The position numbers and the translations under genes are program-made. DNA of 22,822 bases, taken from IMG/VR virus record IMGVR_UViG_3300032820_000131, positions 1 through 22,822 of that record. One strand, given 5' to 3'. Below are positions 1-19,307 of the stretch, in pieces. Below the pieces are notes generated by a model. That model did not search any database, was not told where the DNA came from, and was given only the letters and a program-made list of their open reading frames with translations. The number at the start of each line of letters is the position of its first letter. The stretch's first letter is position 1. This DNA comes from a virus.

Positions 1-3000
1 TGGAGCTTCTACTAAATGCTGTTGTTGATCTGGTAAACGTCCAATCTTTAAGGTATCACCTTTCTTAACTGTTTCAATAATTTCTCTATCAATAACATCA
101 GCAGCACCACTTCCTTTATAGAAGATTACCTTGGAAGTATCATCTTTCTTCGGTGCTTCTGTGAAAGTAACTATACTACCACCATCAAATTTATATCCTT
201 TACCAGGAACTTGAAGGATGTCATTAATCCAAATAAGAAGAACATCTTGAACATTAATTTGAGATCCTTTACGTGAACGAATTGAAATCAAATCTCCACC
301 ATTTTCAGTTAATTGGAAAGTAGTTGTATCACCATCAAAATCATCATCCCAATTATCGAGTACTTGAAGAAGTCCAACAGACCATCCAGTAAATTCATCA
401 TTAAAGGTTTCTGTTATTTCAACAAGGAATTCTTCATAAGAAGAAGTAGTTGGAATACCGGTTGTTCCACCAATAGGAACAGTAAGGAATTCGCCATTTC
501 CATAACCATATCCTGTTTCATCAACTCTAAAATTAACAATACTGGATCCTTGTCCTACCACTACATCAATAGTAGCAGCAGTTCCAATTCCACTATAACC
601 AGAAGCATATTGTAGAGTCATATTGGAATAAGAAGTAGGATCGTCAAATACCACATCCATTGATCTCTGTAAAGATCCACCTCTTGCATAGAAGTGTTCT
701 AATGTCGAAACTCCTGTATTAATCTCAAAAGTCTTATTATCCAAAACTCTTAAAACAGTGGTTCCCCCCGAAGCAGGATCAGTCTTACTTGCAGAGAAGT
801 TATTTGCCCTAGGAGCCATAATTGCTCCCTGAACAGAACCTAATCCCACATAATAAGATGGAACAGTAGAGATACCAATATTAACTTCAAATTCAGTAGT
901 ACTATTAATAGCAGTAATATCTACACCACTATAAGTAGGATCGGGTTTTCTAGGATACCTATGAGTTGTAATTCCACCATCCTTAGCACAAGTAAATTTA
1001 AGAGATTCAGTAGCAATTTTAATACTATTTCCCTGACTCAGACCATGATCACCAATTGTCATCGTCATGATACCAGTGCTAGGACTATAATCTGCAGCAG
1101 TTACATCATACTTGATTATAGTAGAGACACCTACATTTAAAGTAATAGTATTAGCACTAACAGTAGTAATTCCTAAGCAGGTACTAAATCCAGGATCACT
1201 ATATCGTGGATAAGTATGCAGAGTCGCATAATCATCCATGGAACATCTAAAGGTTAAACTATCTTGTTCAACCTTCACAGATTCTCCCATCTTATGAAGT
1301 CCGCCAGCAGAAGCAGATACAAATGTATGAATTCCAGTGTAAGAAGAAGGAATAGTATCTAACACTTGAACTTCAAATGAGGTGCTACCTATACCTGAAA
1401 TAGATCTCCACTTTCCACTAAATGGATCGGTAGTACTTCCTGAACCAGATCTTGGATATGTCTTATTAGCAGTATGTCCATCTAATGCACAAGTGAAGGT
1501 TAATGAATCATTATCAAAACGAACTTTATCTCCACTAGAGAATGAATTTGCAGTACCAACAAAGACCGTCATAATACCTGATACAGGATTATACTGAGCA
1601 GCAGTTACTGTGTGAGTACTTGGTCCAGTAAGACTATGATTACCAATAGTTAAAGCCAGTTGTCCACTAGATGCAGTATAACTAGCATCTGAAACATTAT
1701 AGTAAGATAATGGAGATGAACCCACATTAACAGTAATAGTTGAACTTCCTACCCCAGTAATTGCTGTAACTCCCATTCCTGTAATAGGATCACTGGAACG
1801 AGGATATGCATGAGCACTTGTATTTGAATCTAATGAACAAGTAAAGACTATGGCATTTGTAGAGAATCCTACAGTATCATCTGTGGTGTACGTATGACCT
1901 GCTCCAACCGTCAATACTAAATCACCAGTTGATGCATCATAAGAAGCAGCAGTAGGAGTGGTAGTACCTATTCCTGTTACCGTAACTCCACCACCAACAG
2001 CACTTACAAAAGTATGAGTGTAATTACCACCAGTAACTACGGCACTGCTTGCTGCACTTACAAATTGATGAGTGTAGTCCCCACCTGTAATTACTGCACT
2101 GGTTCCTACACCAACGAATGTATGAGCAAATTGATCAGCAGGACCACCATAACCAACATTAACGGTAATCTTTCCATCATTAAGGGTAATACCATTTGTA
2201 GTCGATCCTACAAAAGTATGAGTACTTGTATTAGTTGAAGGTGTTACACTTAGAACTTGGATTCTAAAAGTATTAGTAGTCTTATTAGAAATCTCTACCC
2301 ATTGTCCAGCAATTGGATCTGTCTCTCGTGGATAAGTATGAGTTGTTTCATTATCATCTTTCGCACAAGTAAAGGATAATGAATTAAGTGCTAATTTAAC
2401 CTTATCACCATTAGATAAACCATGAGAAGGGACTGTAAGCGTCATAACACCTGTGGTAGGGTTATATGAGGCATTTGTTACTGTACTCTTAGTTCCGTCT
2501 CCTGTAATAGCAACTGCGGTATCATATGCTAAGTCTTGACCTCGTGGATAATAATGAGTAGATTCTCCATTATCTAAACCACAAGTAAATGCAAGTCCAG
2601 TAAAGATAACACGACTTGTTTTGCCAGTAGTATTATATCCATGAGGACTAGCAGTTGTAACTGTCATAATACCCGTAGCGGTATTATATCCTACGGCACT
2701 AATACCCAAACGTGGTGAATATGCACAAGTGAATGCAATACCAGAAAGATCTATCTCATCTCCTAATGATAATTCATGAGGAAGATGAGTAGTAACTGTT
2801 GTAAGACCTTGAGCAGTGCTATAACCTACATGGGCAATACTCTTTGCCTTAGAGAATACATAAGGGTTAGTTACAGCAACACCAGTTATGTAACCATCAC
2901 TAATTGCAGCAGTACCAATAGCAACAATATTTGTTCCTGTTAAACTTTCTTGTTGAATGGAAACATTAACTGTTTGAATACCTGATCTATATCCAGAACC

Positions 3001-6000
3001 AGTATATCCAAGACTAATAGAACTGACAGTACCAGCAGTGGAAACAATTGCCGTTCCACCCGCTGCCACTAGTGGTTGATATCCAAATCCTTCACTAGAT
3101 CCAACACTAACAATAACTCCACCCATTGGAAGATTTGAACCGCCTGGATCTGAAGCAATAGAAGTCGCAGTTCCAGTAAAGGTTATAGAAGAAATGCCAG
3201 CACTTTCTGCAATAGTATACTGATAAGTACTTCCATTGGCCTGGAAAATATCATTAACAAGAATGATAGAATCAGTTTGAATACCTGTTACATTTGCACC
3301 ATTAGATTCTAAGGTAAAGGTATTATTAATTCCGTTAAATTGATTAGAAAGACTGTCAAATATATAATTCTCTGTATAGGATTCATTACTACCCCCAGTC
3401 TCACCTGAACGCATAAAGGTTCTTCCTTGGAAATGAGATCCAGTTGATATTCCAACCCAATCCCTATCATCAGGTGGATTGGTAGTACTACTTATAGGAA
3501 CATTCCCATAAGGTGCCTCAGTGAACGTTAGAAGGTTGTTAACGATGTTATAGTTACCAATAACCTTAGTTACTAGTGCATCGGTAGCATGACCCACCAG
3601 GGTCGTTCCTAACCACTCTCTACGCACTCTAATTTTATTGGTGCTACCAATACCAACTCCTTCAATTTTCATAATCTCATCATCAATCTTAATGAGATCG
3701 GCACCAAAGAATGAGGTTATTCCACTAAATTCTGCAATATTCTGAACTCCCAAAAGTTCATTAGAAAGAGTAGTTGTAACAGCAGTAGAGACAACAGGTG
3801 ACTGAATGATATTATCCAGTGCCATCAATACTTTTTGATTCTGTTTCTGAGAAATAAATCTATGAGAAGTACCAATACCCACGCTGGTAATATCTACTGT
3901 CTCTGGTACAATCTTTAATGCTTTTTCTGCTGTTTCAGCAATCTTAATAGTATCATCATTAACTTTAACAACGAATACTTCTGAAGGTAAGAAGGTCGTT
4001 GTACCCACTCCAACAAATCCGTCAGTGGATGCTATTCCGATACCAGAATTAGAAGTTCCTACATGATTATAAGTAATTTTCTCACCAGTAACCCAGAAGT
4101 GATTAGGTACTGTAATAGTATTATCAGCCGTGTCTACTAGTCCACCATCATTTGCTAAGAAATATCTTTCAAAGATATTATAGTTCTTATGTGTTAAATT
4201 GAATGATCTCTTAATATCTCTTTCAGTACCAGTATAAGTCTCAAATCCACTTTCGATAGTTGCATTAGTAAAGTCAATTTCATCCTTAGATGCAACAACA
4301 TTCTTTAATGCATTCATATAAGTCTTAACTTCTACCGCAATACTTGCATTAGGTTGGAAGTATAAAGAAACCGTTCCTAAACCACTAATTCCAGTAGACC
4401 AATAACCTAAATCAGAATGAGTGTTAACAGTTGCATATTCAGTATCATAAGTTTGAACGCTAACAGAAGGATCTTCAATATAATTATCAACAACAATAAT
4501 TTCCGATGTTTGATAATGATTATTAGTTGTATCGGTAACTTGAACTAAGAAATGTGCTCCCTCATAATCATTTGAATACTCAGCAACAGGTACTGCTATA
4601 GGAGTTCCAGAAGCAGCAATATCTTTTGTTCTGGCCTCTATTAAAGCATGGTTCATTTGAATAGTACCAATACCAGAAGAGGTCTGTGCTATTGCAACGT
4701 AAATTGTATTAACAACACAAGTTGTACCGATACCAGCATTAGGAACAAAATCAAGTTTTAAGTCAGTTCCATCGATATAAGGATAATAAGTTCCATAACC
4801 AGCTCCCGAATAACCACCAGGAACAGTAAGTAATTCTCCATATTCTAAAATCTGAACATCCGATCCATCATGAAGAAGATTAATTTCATCAAACTGCCAT
4901 TCACTACTATTGATATCACCAGTACCACTGGCATCAGGGGTAATCTCAACCAACACCTTCACAGAACGATATGTGCTTGCAATACCTACAATATTAGTTG
5001 TGGTGCCAGTAGGAACCTTAGTACTAGAAGATTGAATTATTGCAACATCACTTAAAGCAGTAGTTCCTATTCCTAAGAAATTATCATTTAAATTATAAGA
5101 AAGACATGTAATATCATAATCATTAACACTAAACTTATTAGGATACCATTGTAATTGTCCTAAATCACCACTAATGGCAAAATCAAAGGAACCTTGATCG
5201 TATTCAGTTTCAACTCTTCCATACTGGTTAATATATCCAAATGCCCCATCATGTAAAAGATCAACAATCATTAATTGTCGTTCTTGGGTATATCTTTGAT
5301 CTACCACATAAGTAATATATTTTTGTGCTCTTATATCTGCTAACTTAAATGTATCTACGACACTATACTTGGTGGCCCGTGGATTACTATTGAAAGTCCC
5401 ACTCATATCATCAATAGAAAGAACTCTGTTACCCACAGATTCCTGATAATCCATCAAAATTCTATTTGAGAATATTATTTCATCAGAAACAATAGTAGGA
5501 AGATTTAATGAATTCTCCGTAACCAAATCAAAGTCTTGAACACAGTTGAGATCACCATATCCTATTAAATCTGTTACAACTTCAAGAGAAGTTGTTTGAG
5601 TGGTTAATCCCACTCTCATTGAACTGTCTTTATTAGTTGTCTCCATCTGATAATCGGAGAACTTCTTAAATCCAGCAGTATGATTTATAGAACTTACTAC
5701 ATCATTCCATTTTTCCTCTGCAACTCTTGATCTTAATGCATAAGAGAAATTTTGATAGTAATAACTATCTTGAACTCTTTGCATATTATAGTTAAGAACA
5801 CCTGAATCAGTTTCCCATCCATGCAATACCTTAGATGTTGCATCTAAATTCATAATAGAATTAAAGGATCTTATAGAAGTAGCAGTTCCTTGAGTATTAG
5901 ATGAATCTCCACGAATGACTTCACCAACTTTAAAATCATCAGCAGATGATATTTTTAATATTTCATTATTAAGATCCCATTGTTCTACTGTACCAGAAGC

Positions 6001-9000
6001 AGAAGCAGATGTAACTGTTTCTCCTTCTAGGTATTCCTGAGTTGTTAAATTAATATCAAATACTGGGAAATATTTTTCTGGAATAATTCTACCAGAAGAA
6101 TTAGCAACATCAAATGTACCAATATCTACACCCTCATCAATTAATGATGACATGCTATATGTTATAGTAGCACCTACACCACCAATATTCTTATCAAGTG
6201 AAGTGACTGTGAAAAGTGCATGATTATAATCCGCTGAATTAAAGTTCTTTCCAGTAGATCCTACACCAACACTAATACCCTCTATAAGGAATTTGTCATT
6301 TATTTCAAATGGGAATATATTTGCCGTACTAAATCCTACTGATAATTTAACAAACGCATCTCTAGTAACAGTATTAAATCCAACAGTACTAATACCAACA
6401 CCATTACTATTTTCTACAGGAATAATAGTTGGAGGATATGCTCTACTCAATCCAGTTGGATTTCTGTAAATAGTAACTTGTTGATCTCCTAATTTATAAC
6501 GAATATCAACATTAGAAACTTGTTTCTTACTTTTACCATCAAAAACAAGAAGTTTAGGAGGTGCTTGATATCCTCTTCCTTGGGATGTTATTCCAATAGA
6601 TTCAAAAGCAGCAAGATGATCTATATCAACAATTTGAGGAAGTAATATACTAGGTTGTAAAGTAGTATCAGATGGGAAATTATATCCAATATTATTAATC
6701 TCAGTCCTCTTAATAGAACCCACAGAAGTACTAGAAGGTTCGATAACTGCGGTAGTTCCTACAACGGAAGTAACAGTAGAAATTCCAGGAATAGTATAGT
6801 AATTTGCTCCCTTATCAATTACATTAAACTTCTTAATTGGTCCTAATGCACTACTAGAAGTAGTGTCATATATTACAGTAGAAACAGTGGATGCATAAGA
6901 AGGTTGTTCAGGTAATTGAGCAATAGTATATGTAAAATCAGTTGTAGAAGAAGTTGTAATAACCTGTTCTCCATTATAAAGTGAATATTCAGTTATAATC
7001 TCATTTCCTGCATTAACATCTTCATCTACTACAATTTCTTTCTTAACATTAGGAAGATCACTTTCATAAGTATAATCCAATTTATAATACAGAGTGGGAG
7101 TATACTCATTAATACTTACATTAACCTTAGCACCCACAGCTCCTACTGTTCCTATTCTATCAATTGCAAAGTTAGGATCTGCGGGAGATTTATACCATAG
7201 ATTAGTGAAATTCTTATCAGTATAGAAATTAAGTTCAAATGCAGGATAGGTTGTACCTTGGATTGTATAAGATAATGAAGAATCAGATACATCAAATGAA
7301 GCCGTTGAATCTTGATAGAATCTAAGTTGTGGATTTATGGAGTTAATATTTCCACTGGCTGTACTTGCAACTCCAACAATAGATGGTTTAGATAAAGTTG
7401 AATTATAATGGGTATCAGATAATTTAAAGTTATTCTCATCAGTTCTTACAATATAATATATTCCATTATTTTGTAATCCTTCTATAATAGAAGTATCCGC
7501 AGTATAAAGAACTTTTTGTCCTGTTACAAATCCATGATTGGTTATTGTAAATGTATCAGTAGAAGTATTAACACCGGTGGCAATAAATGATTTGGGATTA
7601 ACTAATAATCTTCTACTATAATCATTATACTTTAAGGTAATATCAGTTGTAACTCCTGGATTTACATCAATGGTTACCTTATCATTATTTGTTAGACCGT
7701 GTGTAGACCCCCCAGAAACGGTTACAAGGTTCCTTGAAACTTCCGCAGTAATTGGATCATAATTAGTCTTAAGACTATGGTATACATCCGTTCCGAGACC
7801 TGTGAAGAAGAACGTACTTGAAGCGGTAGTAGCAATTCCTACCCAAGTGCCTGTGGTACCCATTCCAACGGTAACACTGGATAATCCTATTAAAGTATCG
7901 TTAATTTTAGCAACATAAAGAGTGTCACCATCAGACAATGTAGATATTCCACTAGGATAAGAAGCTTCCTGACGTAGAACTACTAATCCACTTCCACCAT
8001 TAGGAGAATAAGTGATTTTATCATTACTTTGTAAATTATGACCAGGAATATAAAGAGTTTTTGTAGGTACAAAGATCTCAGTAATTCCAGTTCCTGGATT
8101 TGAAAGAGAAATAGTAGTTCCAATACCAACAGCAGCAGTTGTACCTAATCCAACTGTTTCAGATGGATTGAAATAAATCTGTCTATTCCTTCGAGCATTA
8201 TAAGTGGTATTAAATCCAGCATTAATAGTTAAACGACGTTGATCTTGATATAAGAAAGAAGTAACAGTATGAGCTGCACCTATGGTACCATCAACTGCTC
8301 TTAAAACTCTAATCCTATCAAATTCTGGTTGTACATTAAGAACCTTTACTCTCTCAGAAGCAATCTTTAAAATATCATTAGGTTCAATAGCAGGATAAGA
8401 AAGATTACCACTCACATTGAAAAATGTTACAAATCCTGTTGTACCGGTAACTGCAATTCCTGTATTATCATAAGTTCCAATACCAGTTACAACAAATCTA
8501 TTTGTAGAAACCCCTATATTATAAATTCCTCCAATATTAGAAGATGTTGTTGAAAGTCCACTAACAGTAACAGTATCAACATTCTTAAAATTATGAGGAT
8601 TATCTGCTCTTAAAATATATTCTCCCCTAGTATTACCAGGATAAACCTGAACATTACTAATAGTACTAGATGCAACACTTATACTATTAACATCTTTACC
8701 ACCAATAACAGAAACCTTTGCAACAGCTCCATATCCTTGAGTATCTGTATTATCAAAAACAGCTGAATCTCCTACTTGATAAAGGGTACCGCCTGTTAAG
8801 ATTCCTACATTTTCAATAACCCCAGGAGTTACAGATTTAATATCAATAGTTTGAGATAACTTATCAGGAATATAACAATATTCATATTGGAGATCACCTT
8901 CTATTAAATTATAAGGTGCAGTATTCCTCACCCATGAAGAATTATCTAAATCGATACTATCTTGATTTGATGCATAACTAAAGTTGAAATCATGAGGAAT

Positions 9001-12000
9001 AGAATGATAATTAGCCCCTATTAAGTATGGGAAAACAGGTCTCTTATATCCATTAAATACTCCACCTGAATCTGCGGATCCATTGTTAATAGTAGTAAAA
9101 TAAGCATAGGTTCCTTTGGGGAATTCAGGAGTTATACAGAATCTTCCATTATTCTCATCCAGAACAGTTGGATCTTCGACATCTTTATAAACATAATCTT
9201 CAACAAAGAATCCTTGAGGATATAAGGAAGTAGGTGGTCTTTGATCAGGTGAATCAAGACTATAACCACTCTGCATTTGAGCAACTACTCCTCCCGACCT
9301 CTTGACATATCCATAAGGACCATATATTGGATTCCCATCATATGCCCATCCCAATATAGGAGAATGTTGATCGGATTCAACTTCTCTTCCACCTAGAATT
9401 TTTAAATCTTTATCTCCATATAACGTTACTCCTCCTTGATCGGTAGCATATACCGACTCTCTAAGTTTTCTAGGTGCATATAAAGCAGAATACTGCAATC
9501 CTCTATCCACATTAAATTCTTGGGGAATATATCCATCATCAGCAGTAAAGTTGGCAAAATGTCTTTCAAATAAATTAATCGTCCAAGTTTGAACATCAGG
9601 ATCAAATTCAACGCCACTTCCAGGAAATTCTACGTTAATACTCGTAGTTGATTGAGAATATCCATTACCTCCATGAATTACATTAACAGCACTAATCTGG
9701 TCATTCACCATAACAGGAGTAATAACTGCACCTATTCCATCTCCATTAATAGTTAAAGTAGGAGGACAATTATATCTTTCCCCTGCTTTTAAAACTACTA
9801 CTTCTGTAATAACTCCATTAGCTACAATGGGAGATAATTGAGCATCATCTCCTGATGATAATCGGACTAAAGGTTCTCTATTAAGATTAATAATCTCCGA
9901 ATTTCCATATCCAACTCCACTACTCATTAAATGAACAGAAGTTATTTCTCCTCTGAATATGGGCTGAATATCACATTCAAATGTTTCTGTACCAGTAGAT
10001 GCTATACCAACATTACCAATTACTTGTATAGAAATTTCTGGATAATTAAAAGTTTGTGTTCCTACACCAACAGAAGTAAAATCAATATACTGTTTTGACT
10101 TATAATAAAAATCTTTATTCGTTGTTCCTATACCCACAGATGATAGTTTAAAATTATCACTATCAATAGCAGTTACATAATATTCAGTACTTGCAGAAAG
10201 ACCTCCGATTACACTATCAGTAGTCTCTACATAATTGATAACTTCTCCTGATTTATAATCATGATTACTAATATTAATTTGATTTAGAGCTGTATTAATA
10301 CCTGCTGCACTTTTAACAGTTCTCTTTTTATTTTCATATCCAGAACCTGAATTAAGTACATTAATACCTTCTACAATGGTTTTCTTATTATAAGACTGAA
10401 TATATTGCTTACCTATTCCATGAGAAGTCAAGGAAATGGTGTTAATCCCTATTAAAGCATCTCCTTCATTAGAATGTAATTTAACACTTGTTAATCCAAC
10501 CAAAGAAACATAATAAGCAGAATCCGTAGTGATTCCGCCAATAGGTTGTTGATTATTAGTGTCATAAATGACTCTTTCCCCAGAACTAAACTTATGATAA
10601 GTACCAAATCCAATAGTATCTAAATTTAAGTTAACTTCGGGATAAACTTCTCCACCTTGAGAATTAAAAGAGACTGAATGAGTTGCTTCCTTCATATTGG
10701 CAGAAGCTAATGCACCAGATCCATTACCCCCCTCAATTGTTATAATAGGAGTTCCTTGATAATCAAATCCCCCATCTAAAATACGAATATCTTTTAAATT
10801 TCCAGAAACTGCCACATATCCCGTTGCACCTATTCCAGTATTATCACTAATATTCAACAAAGGTGGATTTATAATATCATAATCAATACCAGAATTTACA
10901 ACATCAATTTTATTAATTTTTCCGTAATTAATAGAACTTCTAGACTTATAATTACAAATCTGAACCCCATTAATTAACATGCCTGTCAATCCGGGCGCAG
11001 TTTCAGTTATATTACCATCTTCATCGGGAGAAACGAATTCTCGCAACAAATTTTGAGATTCTAAAATTTTATGCTTAAAACTAGATGGTAAAATCTTGCA
11101 ATTGGTTACATCAATACTATTATCCAGAGAAATGAATGTACCAGTACTAATATTTGTTCTATTTTGTGCTAATTTGATATTATTAGCATCTACACGATAT
11201 ACAAAATAAATTTTTTCATTTGGAGGGATTCTATCTTTAACTTCTTGCGATCCAACTAATCCTGTAACAATATATCCAATATCTCCAGCAAATAAAGAAG
11301 AATTAACCTTTACACCTGTTTTTTTCGTACCAGTAGAAGTGAAATATTCATAATTAACCTTCTCAGGTATATAATAAACTATTTCTCCTGTATAAAATCC
11401 ATGATCACTAAATGGACTTATATTCCATTCTTCTCCAATATAAGTTCCTGTAAAAGTAACAGTTTGGGAGTAAACATCAAGAGGTTGATTATCGTATGAA
11501 GGAAGAGAAGGAGAAGCAACTAAAAGTTTACTATTATTTTTATAAACATTCTGAATATTAGCTGTATATAAAGAAGAAGAAGGAAAACTACTAGAATTAA
11601 CCGTTAAAATATTACGTTTAATATCCCAAGTTGTATTAAGATTTAAATTTCCTTGTCCTCTAATGACAATAGACTTCGCAGAAGGAATATTAATAATACT
11701 AGTAATCTTTTGTGCATCGTTAGCATCAATAAGAGTTGCAGCATCCCCTATTCTGAAATAATGATTTACACTAAGAGTAATTTCATAAGTTAAATCAGAA
11801 GAATCTAATAATTTAACACTTTTTACCTTATAACTAGGAGCAACATTATAAAACCAGTTCTTAGATTTAAATTTAGTGTCTTCAACACCTAAAGTTCTTA
11901 TTTTAGCAGTATCTCCTTTGGAATAATAATAAGTATTGTCTGTAATATCATATTTACCTAAAACGGCGTTAATTCTAACCCTAATTGGATCATTTGGATC

Positions 12001-13194
12001 ACTAAAAGACTGACCATACGCAAAAGTGTTGATTCCAATTGATGTTGCATTAGCAATAGTACTTGTAATATTATCCAAACCAAAGAATTGGTTTAAAGAT
12101 TTGGATTTATAAGAAGCAATGCCTGTTGTACCATCCTTATACTCAATATAAAGGTCTCCAGTCGCTCCAAAACCCACTGTGGAGTCAACAATAAGCGAAG
12201 TAACACCAGATCCCACTTCCCCTATAAGACGAGTCTTTGGTGAAACGTTAAATTCTCCATAAATTGCACCATCAACCCTAATATCTCTATTATATCCTGC
12301 ATCAATACTTAATTTATAATAAGTTTGACCAAATCCAGCTTCAATGGGTTCTACTGATGTAATAGGAGCATAGGCTTTATTAATATCACTTTCAAAAGGT
12401 TCTTGAAATAAGGTAGAATGTTCAAGATCTAATGGATTACCACTAATTGATTCTACTACAAGATCATTTGTAACTCTATAATTAGCATTTGAAGGTGTAA
12501 AGAGAAAATCTCTTGGTCTCACAATTCTTACATCTTCATTATATAATGCTCTAAATAAAATTTTAAAAGAGTTATCACTACCTTTACTTAAATAAAAATC
12601 CTTTGCTTGTTTAATAAAAATATTCTGATCTAAATCAGAATGAAGCTGTCTATCATCAAATCCAGGAGTAAATTGACGTTTTGTTTTTAATAAGAATTGG
12701 TGTAAAAATAAAACACTTAAATTGGTAATCGTAGCACCGGCGTTATGAGAACGTCGAGAGGTATCTTTAAAAACTAATTGATCAGACGCTGCATCTTTGT
12801 GATAAGATGTGACTCCACTAAAACCTCTTATACATCCACTAAAAGAAGAATCTGTTTTACTTGTATATGTAATAACCTCATCATCTATCTGTATTAAACC
12901 ATAAGTATCAGGAAATCCTCTGGTTCCTGTGGGAGATTTTTCTAAATCAACATTTATCGTCCTACCGTATGAAGTAAGACCATCATCTAAAATAACAGAA
13001 GTTTGAAGATTTGTCTGTTCCTGAACCTTAATATATTGATCAATATTTTGCAGTAGATCCAAAGGACCACTTTGATATTCTTGACCCTGATAATAAGATT
13101 TAAAGAACTCAGCAACTAAAGGAAAGTCCTCCTGCACATAAGCAGGAAGCTGATTCTGAACTATGTTACTAAACTTAACTCTATTTTCTGGCAT
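1..13194 (-). CDS. Giant virion structural protein with YHYH domain (C-terminus beyond window)
   Basis: The frame opens at an ATG one base after the gp6 stop and reads to the left edge as 4398 codons with no stop seen; the end lies outside the window. The N-terminus (MPENRVKFSNIVQNQLPAYV) resembles the start of large structural proteins found beside gp6 in marine T4-like phages. The chain is rich in Gly, Ser, Thr, Val, Ile and Asn, as in beta-rich tail proteins. Visible parts are an IDDE motif near residue 105, recurrent 'YYV..vd.n.fkL' motifs in the first 2000 residues, a YHYH-type domain near 1270-1410, another DDE motif near 3171, and seven FTC...YPR repeats at about 3480-4090. There are no long coiled coils and no enzyme signature I can defend. 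T4 has gene 7 in this position, but no gp7 homology is visible. It is probably a baseplate or tail-fibre-network component, inferred from context, and late expressed with gp25 and gp6. Confidence 0.85.
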   Translation of the reverse strand, partial: MPENRVKFSNIVQNQLPAYVQEDFPLVAEFFKSYYQGQEYQSGPLDLLQNIDQYIKVQEQTNLQTSVILDDGLTSYGRTINVDLEKSPTGTRGFPDTYGLIQIDDEVITYTSKTDSSFSGCIRGFSGVTSYHKDAASDQLVFKDTSRRSHNAGATITNLSVLFLHQFLLKTKRQFTPGFDDRQLHSDLDQNIFIKQAKDFYLSKGSDNSFKILFRALYNEDVRIVRPRDFLFTPSNANYRVTNDLVVESISGNPLDLEHSTLFQEPFESDINKAYAPITSVEPIEAGFGQTYYKLSIDAGYNRDIRVDGAIYGEFNVSPKTRLIGEVGSGVTSLIVDSTVGFGATGDLYIEYKDGTTGIASYKSKSLNQFFGLDNITSTIANATSIGINTFAYGQSFSDPNDPIRVRINAVLGKYDITDNTYYYSKGDTAKIRTLGVEDTKFKSKNWFYNVAPSYKVKSVKLLDSSDLTYEITLSVNHYFRIGDAATLIDANDAQKITSIINIPSAKSIVIRGQGNLNLNTTWDIKRNILTVNSSSFPSSSLYTANIQNVYKNNSKLLVASPSLPSYDNQPLDVYSQTVTFTGTYIGEEWNISPFSDHGFYTGEIVYYIPEKVNYEYFTSTGTKKTGVKVNSSLFAGDIGYIVTGLVGSQEVKDRIPPNEKIYFVYRVDANNIKLAQNRTNISTGTFISLDNSIDVTNCKILPSSFKHKILESQNLLREFVSPDEDGNITETAPGLTGMLINGVQICNYKSRSSINYGKINKIDVVNSGIDYDIINPPLLNISDNTGIGATGYVAVSGNLKDIRILDGGFDYQGTPIITIEGGNGSGALASANMKEATHSVSFNSQGGEVYPEVNLNLDTIGFGTYHKFSSGERVIYDTNNQQPIGGITTDSAYYVSLVGLTSVKLHSNEGDALIGINTISLTSHGIGKQYIQSYNKKTIVEGINVLNSGSGYENKKRTVKSAAGINTALNQINISNHDYKSGEVINYVETTDSVIGGLSASTEYYVTAIDSDNFKLSSVGIGTTNKDFYYKSKQYIDFTSVGVGTQTFNYPEISIQVIGNVGIASTGTETFECDIQPIFRGEITSVHLMSSGVGYGNSEIINLNREPLVRLSSGDDAQLSPIVANGVITEVVVLKAGERYNCPPTLTINGDGIGAVITPVMVNDQISAVNVIHGGNGYSQSTTSINVEFPGSGVEFDPDVQTWTINLFERHFANFTADDGYIPQEFNVDRGLQYSALYAPRKLRESVYATDQGGVTLYGDKDLKILGGREVESDQHSPILGWAYDGNPIYGPYGYVKRSGGVVAQMQSGYSLDSPDQRPPTSLYPQGFFVEDYVYKDVEDPTVLDENNGRFCITPEFPKGTYAYFTTINNGSADSGGVFNGYKRPVFPYLIGANYHSIPHDFNFSYASNQDSIDLDNSSWVRNTAPYNLIEGDLQYEYCYIPDKLSQTIDIKSVTPGVIENVGILTGGTLYQVGDSAVFDNTDTQGYGAVAKVSVIGGKDVNSISVASSTISNVQVYPGNTRGEYILRADNPHNFKNVDTVTVSGLSTTSSNIGGIYNIGVSTNRFVVTGIGTYDNTGIAVTGTTGFVTFFNVSGNLSYPAIEPNDILKIASERVKVLNVQPEFDRIRVLRAVDGTIGAAHTVTSFLYQDQRRLTINAGFNTTYNARRNRQIYFNPSETVGLGTTAAVGIGTTISLSNPGTGITEIFVPTKTLYIPGHNLQSNDKITYSPNGGSGLVVLRQEASYPSGISTLSDGDTLYVAKINDTLIGLSSVTVGMGTTGTWVGIATTASSTFFFTGLGTDVYHSLKTNYDPITAEVSRNLVTVSGGSTHGLTNNDKVTIDVNPGVTTDITLKYNDYSRRLLVNPKSFIATGVNTSTDTFTITNHGFVTGQKVLYTADTSIIEGLQNNGIYYIVRTDENNFKLSDTHYNSTLSKPSIVGVASTASGNINSINPQLRFYQDSTASFDVSDSSLSYTIQGTTYPAFELNFYTDKNFTNLWYKSPADPNFAIDRIGTVGAVGAKVNVSINEYTPTLYYKLDYTYESDLPNVKKEIVVDEDVNAGNEIITEYSLYNGEQVITTSSTTDFTYTIAQLPEQPSYASTVSTVIYDTTSSSALGPIKKFNVIDKGANYYTIPGISTVTSVVGTTAVIEPSSTSVGSIKRTEINNIGYNFPSDTTLQPSILLPQIVDIDHLAAFESIGITSQGRGYQAPPKLLVFDGKSKKQVSNVDIRYKLGDQQVTIYRNPTGLSRAYPPTIIPVENSNGVGISTVGFNTVTRDAFVKLSVGFSTANIFPFEINDKFLIEGISVGVGSTGKNFNSADYNHALFTVTSLDKNIGGVGATITYSMSSLIDEGVDIGTFDVANSSGRIIPEKYFPVFDINLTTQEYLEGETVTSASASGTVEQWDLNNEILKISSADDFKVGEVIRGDSSNTQGTATSIRSFNSIMNLDATSKVLHGWETDSGVLNYNMQRVQDSYYYQNFSYALRSRVAEEKWNDVVSSINHTAGFKKFSDYQMETTNKDSSMRVGLTTQTTSLEVVTDLIGYGDLNCVQDFDLVTENSLNLPTIVSDEIIFSNRILMDYQESVGNRVLSIDDMSGTFNSNPRATKYSVVDTFKLADIRAQKYITYVVDQRYTQERQLMIVDLLHDGAFGYINQYGRVETEYDQGSFDFAISGDLGQLQWYPNKFSVNDYDITCLSYNLNDNFLGIGTTALSDVAIIQSSSTKVPTGTTTNIVGIASTYRSVKVLVEITPDASGTGDINSSEWQFDEINLLHDGSDVQILEYGELLTVPGGYSGAGYGTYYPYIDGTDLKLDFVPNAGIGTTCVVNTIYVAIAQTSSGIGTIQMNHALIEARTKDIAASGTPIAVPVAEYSNDYEGAHFLVQVTDTTNNHYQTSEIIVVDNYIEDPSVSVQTYDTEYATVNTHSDLGYWSTGISGLGTVSLYFQPNASIAVEVKTYMNALKNVVASKDEIDFTNATIESGFETYTGTERDIKRSFNLTHKNYNIFERYFLANDGGLVDTADNTITVPNHFWVTGEKITYNHVGTSNSGIGIASTDGFVGVGTTTFLPSEVFVVKVNDDTIKIAETAEKALKIVPETVDITSVGIGTSHRFISQKQNQKVLMALDNIIQSPVVSTAVTTTLSNELLGVQNIAEFSGITSFFGADLIKIDDEIMKIEGVGIGSTNKIRVRREWLGTTLVGHATDALVTKVIGNYNIVNNLLTFTEAPYGNVPISSTTNPPDDRDWVGISTGSHFQGRTFMRSGETGGSNESYTENYIFDSLSNQFNGINNTFTLESNGANVTGIQTDSIILVNDIFQANGSTYQYTIAESAGISSITFTGTATSIASDPGGSNLPMGGVIVSVGSSEGFGYQPLVAAGGTAIVSTAGTVSSISLGYTGSGYRSGIQTVNVSIQQESLTGTNIVAIGTAAISDGYITGVAVTNPYVFSKAKSIAHVGYSTAQGLTTVTTHLPHELSLGDEIDLSGIAFTCAYSPRLGISAVGYNTATGIMTVTTASPHGYNTTGKTSRVIFTGLAFTCGLDNGESTHYYPRGQDLAYDTAVAITGDGTKSTVTNASYNPTTGVMTLTVPSHGLSNGDKVKLALNSLSFTCAKDDNETTHTYPRETDPIAGQWVEISNKTTNTFRIQVLSVTPSTNTSTHTFVGSTTNGITLNDGKITVNVGYGGPADQFAHTFVGVGTSAVITGGDYTHQFVSAASSAVVTGGNYTHTFVSAVGGGVTVTGIGTTTPTAASYDASTGDLVLTVGAGHTYTTDDTVGFSTNAIVFTCSLDSNTSAHAYPRSSDPITGMGVTAITGVGSSTITVNVGSSPLSYYNVSDASYTASSGQLALTIGNHSLTGPSTHTVTAAQYNPVSGIMTVFVGTANSFSSGDKVRFDNDSLTFTCALDGHTANKTYPRSGSGSTTDPFSGKWRSISGIGSTSFEVQVLDTIPSSYTGIHTFVSASAGGLHKMGESVKVEQDSLTFRCSMDDYATLHTYPRYSDPGFSTCLGITTVSANTITLNVGVSTIIKYDVTAADYSPSTGIMTMTIGDHGLSQGNSIKIATESLKFTCAKDGGITTHRYPRKPDPTYSGVDITAINSTTEFEVNIGISTVPSYYVGLGSVQGAIMAPRANNFSASKTDPASGGTTVLRVLDNKTFEINTGVSTLEHFYARGGSLQRSMDVVFDDPTSYSNMTLQYASGYSGIGTAATIDVVVGQGSSIVNFRVDETGYGYGNGEFLTVPIGGTTGIPTTSSYEEFLVEITETFNDEFTGWSVGLLQVLDNWDDDFDGDTTTFQLTENGGDLISIRSRKGSQINVQDVLLIWINDILQVPGKGYKFDGGSIVTFTEAPKKDDTSKVIFYKGSGAADVIDREIIETVKKGDTLKIGRLPDQQQHLVEAP
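940..2745 (-). repeat. Seven degenerate FTC..D....H.YPR protein repeats
   Basis: Seven copies of a motif with consensus 'slxFTCaxDxxxtxHxYPRxxDP' occur at about 2705-2745 (short form FTCAYSPR), 2535-2600, 2315-2385, 1790-1850, 1435-1505, 1195-1260 and 940-1010. Six of them keep the Cys, Asp and Tyr-Pro-Arg, and most keep the His. Spacing is irregular (about 200-430 bp). Between copies lie 'THTFVSA'-like strings and a recurrent 'tPSTGiMTlTvg..H.ls.GdkVk' linker. The DNA itself is diverged, so this is an old protein-level repeat rather than a recent tandem duplication. Confidence 0.8.
8960..9380 (-). other. YHYH-type domain inside the giant structural protein
   Basis: Around residues 1272-1412 the giant protein contains GWAYDGNPIYGPYGY, then NGRFCITPEFPKGTYAYF, then GANYHSIPHDF. 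This order of an aromatic/Gly-rich motif, a TPE-P-GTYAYF motif and a His-containing motif is characteristic of the YHYH family (Pfam PF14240). That family is found in environmental bacteria and recurs in large marine phage structural proteins. Its biochemical role is not established. The clustered His, Asp and Tyr residues would suit metal or ligand binding, but that is inference. Confidence 0.7.
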
Positions 13195-15979: not shown

Positions 15980-16801
15980 TTAAATGATTCGAGTTTTTTC
16001 GTGACCCACTCTTATACGAGGATCGCACCATATATCCCATCCCTTCTCGATTGCATCGAGGCAGAATGAAACGTCTTCCCCACACATATCCTGAACTGCG
16101 CCAGATTCAAACTGTTGCATCTTAGGAGCAAACCAAGGATATTCAAGATCTTCAAATACTCCTTTCTTAATAAGAACCCAACCAAAACCAGTATAATCAA
16201 CTGTGAAAGGTTTCTTTCTTTTCGAGATGCTTTCGACGGTTTCGTGATTCATAACACCACCGTTCTTGCGGAATTCATCTTCCTCTAACCAATGAGCAAC
16301 AGAGGTAGTGCTCCCATCCTCAGTGGCATACCAACCAGCAGTAATAGAACGTTGGTTAAGAAGTTCTTCGTTCCAACTTACAATATTCCCTGTCTCATCG
16401 GTTGTTGCTGCTTCTGCTGGAACTGAGACATCACATAACTGCCAGAATTTGTTTGTGTCAAAGACTATATCCGAGTCAATCCATAATTGATAATCATACT
16501 TTAACTTTCCGTCCCAAGGAATCTGATCAGGTCCTCTGAGAACATTTGCTCCAAGACACTTACATCTTGCAAAGTTAACCATTGAAGAGTAGTCCTGAGA
16601 TATCTGGATAGACATACCATTCTGAACCATGTCAAAGCATAACTGCACAAAGTTTTTCAGAAAGATGTATGAGCATCCACGACCTGGAAGACAGAATACA
16701 ATAGTCTTCCCTTTCATTCTTTTTTTAATTGCCTCTATATCCCATTCATCCTTCTTCTTAGGTTTGGGAGCATTGGCTTTAACAGTAAATCCTTTTGCCA
16801 T
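15980..16801 (-). CDS. Glycosyltransferase-like protein (GT-A type, 273 aa)
   Basis: After a Lys-rich N-terminus (APKPKKKDEW) the chain has a Rossmann-like start KTIVFCLPGRGCSYIFLKNF (32-51). DYQLWIDSDIVFD (103-115) contains the Asp109-x-Asp111 motif that binds metal and nucleotide sugar in GT-A enzymes. Near the C-terminus, CGEDVSFCLDAIEKGWDIWCD (240-260) and VGHEK (265-269) match the acceptor-side acidic motif and the metal-binding His. No signal peptide or membrane segment is present, so it would act in the host cytoplasm, on DNA bases, virion proteins or cell glycans; the substrate cannot be read from sequence. A consensus sigma-70 promoter lies 24 nt upstream. An AAGG lies about 12 nt before the ATG, somewhat far for a good Shine-Dalgarno. 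Confidence 0.72.
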   Translation of the reverse strand: MAKGFTVKANAPKPKKKDEWDIEAIKKRMKGKTIVFCLPGRGCSYIFLKNFVQLCFDMVQNGMSIQISQDYSSMVNFARCKCLGANVLRGPDQIPWDGKLKYDYQLWIDSDIVFDTNKFWQLCDVSVPAEAATTDETGNIVSWNEELLNQRSITAGWYATEDGSTTSVAHWLEEDEFRKNGGVMNHETVESISKRKKPFTVDYTGFGWVLIKKGVFEDLEYPWFAPKMQQFESGAVQDMCGEDVSFCLDAIEKGWDIWCDPRIRVGHEKTRII

Positions 16802-17421: not shown

Positions 17422-17550
17422 TTATAGTGGGGTAGATTGCACCTCATAAAGATCATCTAATACAGCAAGGATTTCATTACCATTTGATGCACTATCTAGA
17501 AGAAATTGTGCGAAGTTAGGTGATACAAACTGTGCGCTACTGTTTGACAT
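17422..17550 (-). CDS. Very small hypothetical protein (42 aa)
   Basis: The frame encodes MSNSSAQFVSPNFAQFLLDS and ends ...VLDDLYEVQSTPL, 42 residues with acidic, helix-prone character. An AGGA in TTAGGACACTTAAAATG, 10 nt before the ATG, can serve as Shine-Dalgarno. That same segment is an inverted partial copy of the repeated GGACACTT motif. The gene is bracketed by the repeated element at 17618-17644 upstream and the hairpin at 17370-17398 downstream, so it looks like a one-gene transcription unit. Function unknown. Confidence 0.6.
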   Translation of the reverse strand: MSNSSAQFVSPNFAQFLLDSASNGNEILAVLDDLYEVQSTPL

Positions 17551-17617
17551 TTTAAGTGTCCTAATTAGGGTTGACATTGTGATACTTTACTCAGGCATAA
17601 TTGCAAGAGTACTGTAT

Positions 17618-17650: not shown

Positions 17651-17824
17651 TTACCAACTGACGGGATTTGACAGATCTTCAGTAATACTTTCTACGGACT
17701 CATTTGGTTCCAATTGTAATACTTTACGCCAGTCAATTTGCCTTGGATTAAAATCATCTTCTACTGTAATATCCAACGTTATTCTATACCTTTGCTCTGT
17801 ACGGTTGTAGTAAGAAACTGTCAT
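17651..17824 (-). CDS. Small conserved phage protein (57 aa)
   Basis: The 57-residue product begins MTVSYYNRTEQRYRITLDIT and continues VEDDFNPRQIDWRKVLQLEPNES. The beta-strand-like start followed by 'D.NP.QIDW' and a short helix looks like a folded protein that I associate with small cyanophage hypotheticals; function unknown. No Shine-Dalgarno is evident. A strong sigma-70 promoter lies about 30 nt upstream. The repeated element A follows directly after its stop, so it is probably monocistronic. Confidence 0.7.
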   Translation of the reverse strand: MTVSYYNRTEQRYRITLDITVEDDFNPRQIDWRKVLQLEPNESVESITEDLSNPVSW

Positions 17825-17854: not shown

Positions 17855-17883
17855 ATTCTAACATACAGTATAATAACTGTCAA
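17855..17883 (-). promoter_or_regulatory. Sigma-70 promoter (TTGACA-17-TAGAAT)
   Basis: TTGACA (17878-17883) and TAGAAT (17855-17860) on the minus strand are separated by 17 nt. The predicted start is near 17848, giving a leader of about 24 nt for the 57-aa gene ending at 17651. Confidence 0.75.
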
Positions 17884-18003
17884 TATGTGTCAGTTATTTA
17901 TGTGTCTTATGTAACAATAATCGAACCTAAACTATCGGTTCTAGTTTATACTGAACTGGTTTGGTATTAGTGCTACAAAATGTTAACGAGGGTATTGTAT
18001 ATA

Positions 18004-18032
18004 ACGCTCGCTCGTGTTATACTACGCTCGCT
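18004..18032 (+). repeat. Direct repeat of ACGCTCGCT
   Basis: ACGCTCGCT occurs at 18004-18012 and 18024-18032, a 20-bp period or about two helical turns. A partial copy, GACGCTGAG, follows at 18041-18049. Such phasing fits protein binding on one DNA face, but two copies are weak evidence. Confidence 0.5.
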
Positions 18033-18091
18033 AAGATACTGACGCTGAGTGACATTTAAATGACTTAATTACCTTCCTATTTCTAACACTT

Positions 18092-18139
18092 TTATTCCAC
18101 ATATTAACACCCCTTTATACACACTTATTCCACATATTA
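18092..18139 (+). repeat. 15-bp direct repeat TTATTCCACATATTA
   Basis: Exact copies lie at 18092-18106 and 18125-18139, 33 bp apart. Each contains TATTCCACA, one base from the TTTTCCACA box. The spacer and the following bases carry complementary CCCCTT (18110-18115) and AAGGGG (18141-18146). Confidence 0.8.
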
Positions 18140-18267
18140 CAAGGGGTTTTATACAACATTGTGGAAAAGGTTTAAATCGCTCATGTATATTTAATTTGCT
18201 ATTTATTAGGGTTAAATATACTTAATTTAAGGGTTTTCCACAGATTCCACATACAAATTGTGGAAAA
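18093..18267. other. Cluster of DnaA-box-like sites (TTTTCCACA)
   Basis: Exact TTTTCCACA occurs at 18234-18242 (plus), 18160-18168 (minus) and 18259-18267 (minus). Near matches TATTCCACA at 18093-18101 and 18126-18134 and GATTCCACA at 18243-18251 are on the plus strand. TTTTCCACA is the DnaA-box form used in cyanobacteria (E. coli consensus TTATCCACA). The sites at 18234 and 18259 form a perfect 9-bp inverted repeat with a 16-bp spacer. Six sites in 175 bp in an AT-rich region is the pattern of a DnaA-dependent origin or a DnaA sink; which one cannot be told from sequence. Confidence 0.6.
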
Positions 18268-19137: not shown

Positions 19138-19307
19138 AGGTAAGAAGTGAGTGAATGTAGAGTGTTATGTGTAAATGAACAATGTGTAATCTCTTGCTGA
19201 AAAGTATTACTTACCTTATCAATTAGACTACTGTAATTATTACAATACCACAAACCGATTGCATCCTTTATGTTACAATCAGTGATGAGAATCATTCGTT
19301 GCTTCAT
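19134..19307 (-). CDS. Small hypothetical protein (57 aa)
   Basis: The start at 19307 (MKQRMILITDCNIKDAIGLW) is preferred over the in-frame ATG at 19322. GGAG lies 9 nt before the 19307 codon, and this start sits directly after the TAA of the 81-aa gene instead of inside it. The protein has a hydrophobic first strand, a short helix, three Cys and a Ser/Thr-rich tail. Its TGA overlaps the next ATG. Function unknown. Confidence 0.6.
   Translation of the reverse strand: MKQRMILITDCNIKDAIGLWYCNNYSSLIDKVSNTFQQEITHCSFTHNTLHSLTSYL

Follow-up and report, generated by a model that had tools for sequence, protein, structure and literature searches.

An array of DnaA-box words lies in a short non-coding region upstream of the gp25-gp6 baseplate genes in the viral DNA analysed here, and it is found at the same position, with a conserved layout, in many T4-like cyanophages. 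The preliminary description had treated the boxes as a feature of one such phage; they belong instead to a family-wide module, which also comprises an AT-rich core and two divergent promoters. The box words match those of host oriC regions. Taken together, the array, the AT-rich stretch and the opposed promoters suggest that these phages use or hijack the replication starter of their host. From sequence comparisons, we conclude with moderate confidence that T4-like cyanophages carry in this element a control module which resembles a replication origin and would bind host DnaA.

For T4-like cyanophages, there is no settled view of how DNA synthesis starts. Syn9 was predicted to have a single theta origin, and the passage of PMC2984593 that cites this prediction gives no site. 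In the open-access literature searched, outside of which the primary Syn9 genome paper lies, neither a cyanophage DnaA-box array nor a T4-like DnaA-box origin was found.

The box array in the window

The window, that is, the whole stretch of 22,822 nucleotides analysed, is an isolated virus record, the 22.8-kb fragment IMGVR_UViG_3300032820_000131. Its convincing genes all lie on the minus strand and comprise those for a giant gp7-like protein, gp6 and gp25, as well as small genes. Since the closest records by gp6 are the Synechococcus phages S-SM2 (71%) and Bellamy (69%) and one marine single-cell virus, the window is assigned to the T4-like cyanophages (Kyanoviridae); its host is presumably a cyanobacterium. 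The host marker psbA gave no match on the contigs, fragments that may not reach the psbA region. The giant gp7-like baseplate protein, comparable to that of P-SSM2, corresponds to an ORF of at least 4,398 aa (1-13194, minus strand). A 273-aa glycosyltransferase-like protein (15980-16801, minus strand; phrog_1574) has at least 593 relatives and is very common in marine viral contigs. The features of the element, in the direction of these genes, are as follows.

18259..18267, minus strand: DnaA box 1, TTTTCCACA, exact match; anchor (+0, gene sense) for the relatives
18243..18251, plus strand: weaker middle box GATTCCACA, near match, within the inverted pair
18234..18242, plus strand: DnaA box 2, TTTTCCACA, exact match; in inverted orientation to box 1, their starts 25 bp apart
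18169..18233, no strand: AT-rich interbox core, putative unwinding region; mean A+T of 75% over 58 relatives, consensus ATAAATAgcaaatTAAATaTA
18200..18207, minus strand: late-promoter-like octamer AATAAATA of T4 type (NATAAATA), in the AT-rich core
18160..18168, minus strand: DnaA box 3, TTTTCCACA, exact match; 99 bp from box 1
18126..18134, plus strand: DnaA box 4, TATTCCACA, near match, in the direct repeat copy 18125-18139
18093..18101, plus strand: DnaA box 5, TATTCCACA, near match, in the direct repeat copy 18092-18106
18026..18035, minus strand: conserved motif CTTAGC, next to the point where the transcript of the reverse promoter would start; part of the promoter or adjoining it
17995..18023, plus strand: reverse sigma-70 promoter, TTGTAT-17-TATACT with extended -10 (TGT), aimed back through boxes and core
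17855..17883, minus strand: forward sigma-70 promoter, TTGACA-17-TAGAAT with extended -10 (TGT)
17651..17824, minus strand: 57-aa ORF behind the forward promoter, absent from the ORF list
17422-17577, minus strand: 51-aa short ORF just downstream of the box region, absent from the ORF list

The three exact copies of TTTTCCACA and three near matches described earlier within 175 bp (18093-18267) were confirmed at their coordinates. The 15-bp direct repeat is TTATTCCACATATTA, and the perfect 9-bp inverted repeat is formed by the sites at 18234 (+) and 18259 (-). The region had also been called gene-free and AT-rich. The former holds for about 17.88-18.32 kb, with the two short ORFs lying just downstream. 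The latter is correct but not extreme: the A+T content of the core is conserved, yet the interbox stretch, within the least stable 3.4% of the window, is not its minimum.

Six box-like words in 175 bp compare with a maximum of three, reached once, and typically one in 300 dinucleotide shuffles; the host box word is thus denser in the array than by chance. A chance cluster is ruled out by these shuffles and by recurrence in relatives picked without regard to boxes. The three exact TTTTCCACA sites of the array are the only ones in the record which, being a fragment, does not allow the boxes of the whole phage genome to be counted.

The identification of TTTTCCACA as the cyanobacterial DnaA box proved sound: it is the established box, tested in vitro in Cyanothece (PMC4674748), and it matches host oriC words. 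In Prochlorococcus-type genomes and other members of the family, the region upstream of dnaN contains TTTTCCACA, ATTTCCACA, AATTCCACA and TATTCCACA; the small-genome host genus examined (30% GC, genomes of 1-1.7 Mb) is taken to be Prochlorococcus. Host DnaA very probably binds the array. DnaA is essential in S. elongatus and dispensable in some other cyanobacteria (PMC7198777).

Conservation in cultured phages and environmental relatives

An inverted TTTTCCACA pair occupies the same place in ACG-2014g, P-SSM7, Syn19, S-RIM8, S-SSM5, S-SZBM1, S-RIM32, S-IOM18, S-RIM12, Syn9, S-PM2, S-SM1 and Syn33. S-SM2 carries TTCTCCACA and two TTTTCCACA there, and Syn1 has a three-box cluster in a single orientation. 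The pair-bearing cultured Kyanoviridae span many genera. The pair lies at about 52,565 in Syn9, at 50,629 in Syn19 and at 19,231 in S-PM2. Exact sites number two to eight in whole cultured genomes and form a cluster nowhere but at or close to the locus upstream of gp25-gp6; phages of 170-200 kb have one array per genome. The preliminary description had named three outcomes that would speak against its proposal. Two of these, further clusters elsewhere and lack of conservation, did not occur, since comparison of the syntenic region finds the array at the same position in many relatives and since no second array of this kind was seen in the genomes and long contigs examined.

The boxes of the inverted pair are absent from P-SSM2, P-SSM4, P-HM1, P-RSM4, S-SSM7, Bellamy and SynMITS9220M01. 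Among these, Bellamy and SynMITS9220M01 keep a similar AT-rich core and both promoters, with homologues of the 57-aa ORF behind the same forward promoter. As P-SSM2, P-SSM4, Bellamy and SynMITS9220M01 do without boxes, DnaA is not obligatory across the whole family. No DnaA-box cluster was found in T4 or in the SAR11 myophage HTVC008M.

Environmental relatives were sampled independently of the boxes, as 80 viral contigs encoding the neighbouring 273-aa protein. At least three boxes within 220 bp were found in 14 of the 20 contigs having at least 2 kb of upstream sequence. The commonest layout, in gene sense, is +0, -24/25, +99, -133, -165/166. In relatives, the box 4 position (+133) is occupied by TATTCCACA or TTTTCCACA, and the box 5 position (+165 to +167) by TATTCCACA, TAATCCACA or TTATCCACA. 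An extra box at the middle-box position is seen in other relatives, as GTTTCCACA (contig L007), TTTTCCACA (S-PM2 and S-RIM32) or ATTTCCACA (S-SZBM1). Other layouts have boxes of a single orientation at 0, 22, 42 or at 0, 33, 64, and in one an AT-rich core splits the pair. Direct-repeat arrangements, some with TTATCCACA variants, occur in contigs L032, L035, L050, L052 and L071; what is kept is therefore the word and not a hairpin.

Scanning IMG/VR for a box, an inverted box and a box retrieved 61 stretches with the three-box layout of the window (window-type). The outer spacing is 99 bp (total span 108 nt) in 54 of 60 window-type stretches, in a search that allowed 92-105 (span 101-114), so that the boxes are invariant by design and the spacing was free. 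Box spacing stays fixed while mean identity in the 66-nt interbox stretch is only 63% among window-type relatives. A second scan, for an inverted pair with CTTAGCACG, added 116 stretches with the simpler inverted pair, including records of some cultured phages; the pair is spaced by 23 bp in 85 of 111. An over-specific pattern scan of viral sequences gave no match. In bacterial genomes, the inverted pair is scattered over phyla among the matches listed.

The IMG/VR assemblies often break about 100 bp or less from the array (L007, L103, L138, L141, L012), probably because of population diversity or of the inverted repeat. The 15-16-nt loop between the inverted boxes (L087-L143; 18243-18258 in the window) occurs in both orientations among relatives, with three exact reverse-complement pairs, for instance GTTATTGATACTTTC and GAAAGTATCAATAAC, as if it flipped by fold-back or by recombination between the 11-12-bp arms. 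In S-RIM32 (L151) and S-PM2 (L330), runs of short repeats (like AAATCTCAAAA) just downstream of the pair replace the usual forward promoter.

Promoters and possible roles of the element

Downstream of the pair come the core, further boxes (window-type only), the CTTAGC motif with the reverse promoter, the forward promoter and the small genes. The reverse promoter stands at the same position in nearly all of 58 window-type elements, with a mean score of 11.8 against 9.3 (sd 0.8) in shuffles. Its best versions read TTGACA-17/18-TGN-TATAAT (window-type best, TTGACA-18-TGT-TATAAT); the -35 of the copy in the window is weak. It has no annotated gene to serve, since the annotated neighbours run forward in the gene tables of the cultured phages examined. 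On the forward side, a TTGAC promoter follows the inverted pair in 87 of 92 elements of the cultured type. Divergent promoter pairs as such were rejected as a unique signature, because they are found elsewhere too in most genomes. The NATAAATA octamer is present in 54 of 58 window-type cores (2.4 expected) versus none of 86 cultured-type elements.

An origin-like module fits these data best because of the fixed geometry, the AT-rich core, the promoter directed into the core and the single copy per genome. Host DnaA would occupy the oriented boxes on both sides of the core. As at origins that depend on transcription, the reverse sigma-70 promoter, whose predicted course is into the putative unwinding region, could help duplex opening, provide a primer transcript, or both. 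The next step would be loading of the phage replisome, at an early stage of infection and ahead of recombination-dependent replication. Duplex opening, priming and origin firing at the element are plausible on these grounds. Several observations agree with an origin: the cluster is non-random, spacing is fixed despite spacer drift, the words are those of host oriC, the reverse promoter is gene-less, and T4 and HTVC008M are without a cluster.

Other observations count against it. T4-like cyanophages are described as encoding a full T4-type replisome (PMC2984593). Some relatives are box-less, DNA less stable than the core is present elsewhere in the window, the neighbourhood of oriF (uvsW, uvsY) is not kept, and the late-promoter octamer of window-type cores points toward transcription. 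The proposal of a host-type origin gains from the host oriC words and the single conserved array, but the GC-skew switch looked for at the element was absent from six complete box-bearing genomes and two long contigs. This is a weak test, since transcription bias dominates skew in T4-like cyanophages. GC skew was set aside as origin evidence: in box-bearing genomes and box-less controls alike, the maximum after detrending is mostly located close to the border between early and late genes. The missing switch, the full phage replisome and the box-less relatives call for caution. Tentatively, and somewhat less probably than the module itself, a large share of ocean T4-like cyanophages would rely on host DnaA to fire one dedicated origin of replication, some lineages having lost the boxes and kept the rest.

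The array might instead act as a decoy or datA-like sink that stops host initiation by titrating or inactivating host DnaA, with no phage origin involved. A lytic phage benefits from halting host replication, and multi-copy phage DNA would multiply the two to six boxes of each array. However, simple titration could work without fixed spacing, orientation, an AT-rich core or a promoter, all of which are conserved, and there is just one array per genome; we consider a sink unlikely, though it may be a structured one like datA. A similarly low probability is given to a transcription switch, in which box-bound DnaA would repress or activate the divergent early promoters, and the late core promoter in window-type elements, and would time expression of the small-gene and gp25 region. 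DnaA is a known bacterial transcription factor, two strong sigma-70 promoters are present with small genes downstream, and the octamer is frequent in window-type cores. Against such a switch, the first box is upstream of the forward promoter by about 140-230 bp in cultured-type elements and by about 270-390 bp in most window-type ones, the reverse promoter lacks a gene, and the octamer is missing from cultured-type elements.

That the words are recognised by some other protein, of phage or host, or belong to an RNA hairpin, their match to the DnaA box being coincidental, seems very unlikely. The inverted pair can form a hairpin, the two loop orientations suggest cruciform or fold-back events, and some relatives are without boxes. 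Nevertheless, the direct-repeat arrangements are unable to form a hairpin, and the variants TTATCCACA, TATTCCACA and ATTTCCACA fit the DnaA-box pattern and host oriC usage. A hairpin or RNA element was rejected as the main function given these direct-repeat versions, the lack of any Rfam family near threshold and the absence of a terminator-like site.

The module provides a concrete, testable locus in cultured phages for the start of DNA synthesis, with the natural box-less relatives as a ready comparison. It would tie the phage's replication to the initiator of its host, and by that route perhaps to the host's cell cycle as well. An origin fired by DnaA would be a mode of starting replication not known in T4-like phages. 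If the element is a DnaA sink or switch instead, very abundant marine viruses would possess in it a device for host takeover.

Comparison with known systems

Like the element, T4 oriF (the uvsY origin) has a promoter running into unstable DNA, and it lies near gene 25 (rep_origin 115321 on the T4 map). However, oriF uses a middle promoter, T4 has no DnaA-box cluster, and oriF adjoins uvsY, which in cyanophages sits elsewhere with uvsW. The element does not occupy a position between uvsY and gene 25: the cyanophage homologues of uvsW lie at a great distance from it, as does uvsY in Bellamy, where it was found. A second SF2 helicase is encoded a few kb upstream of the element in Syn9, Syn19, S-RIM8, S-SM1, P-SSM7, Bellamy and the long contigs G002 and G003. 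As this helicase is not UvsW, synteny with oriF through uvsW/uvsY was rejected; because that neighbourhood is not conserved, positional homology to oriF is not shown.

DnaA-box origins are known from temperate phages and plasmids, such as the lambda region, P1 oriR, F and similar replicons. These likewise place host DnaA boxes beside AT-rich DNA, and transcription may activate the origin. They differ in being temperate or plasmid-like and in having their own initiator (O, RepA); neither an initiator nor an iteron array was seen at the cyanophage element. E. coli datA and DARS are also small non-coding DnaA-box clusters of fixed geometry, but they are chromosomal, assisted by IHF/Fis, and lack the AT-rich core and promoters.

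Cyanobacterial oriC differs from the phage element, which resides in a genome with its own replisome, has much stricter spacing, is flanked by divergent promoters, and has phage small genes and gp25/gp6 as neighbours, with neither dnaN nor dnaA beside it. Both nevertheless have TTTTCCACA-type boxes in mixed orientations within a non-coding stretch, and some Cyanobiaceae oriC regions likewise contain two convergent boxes spaced by about 20-23 bp.
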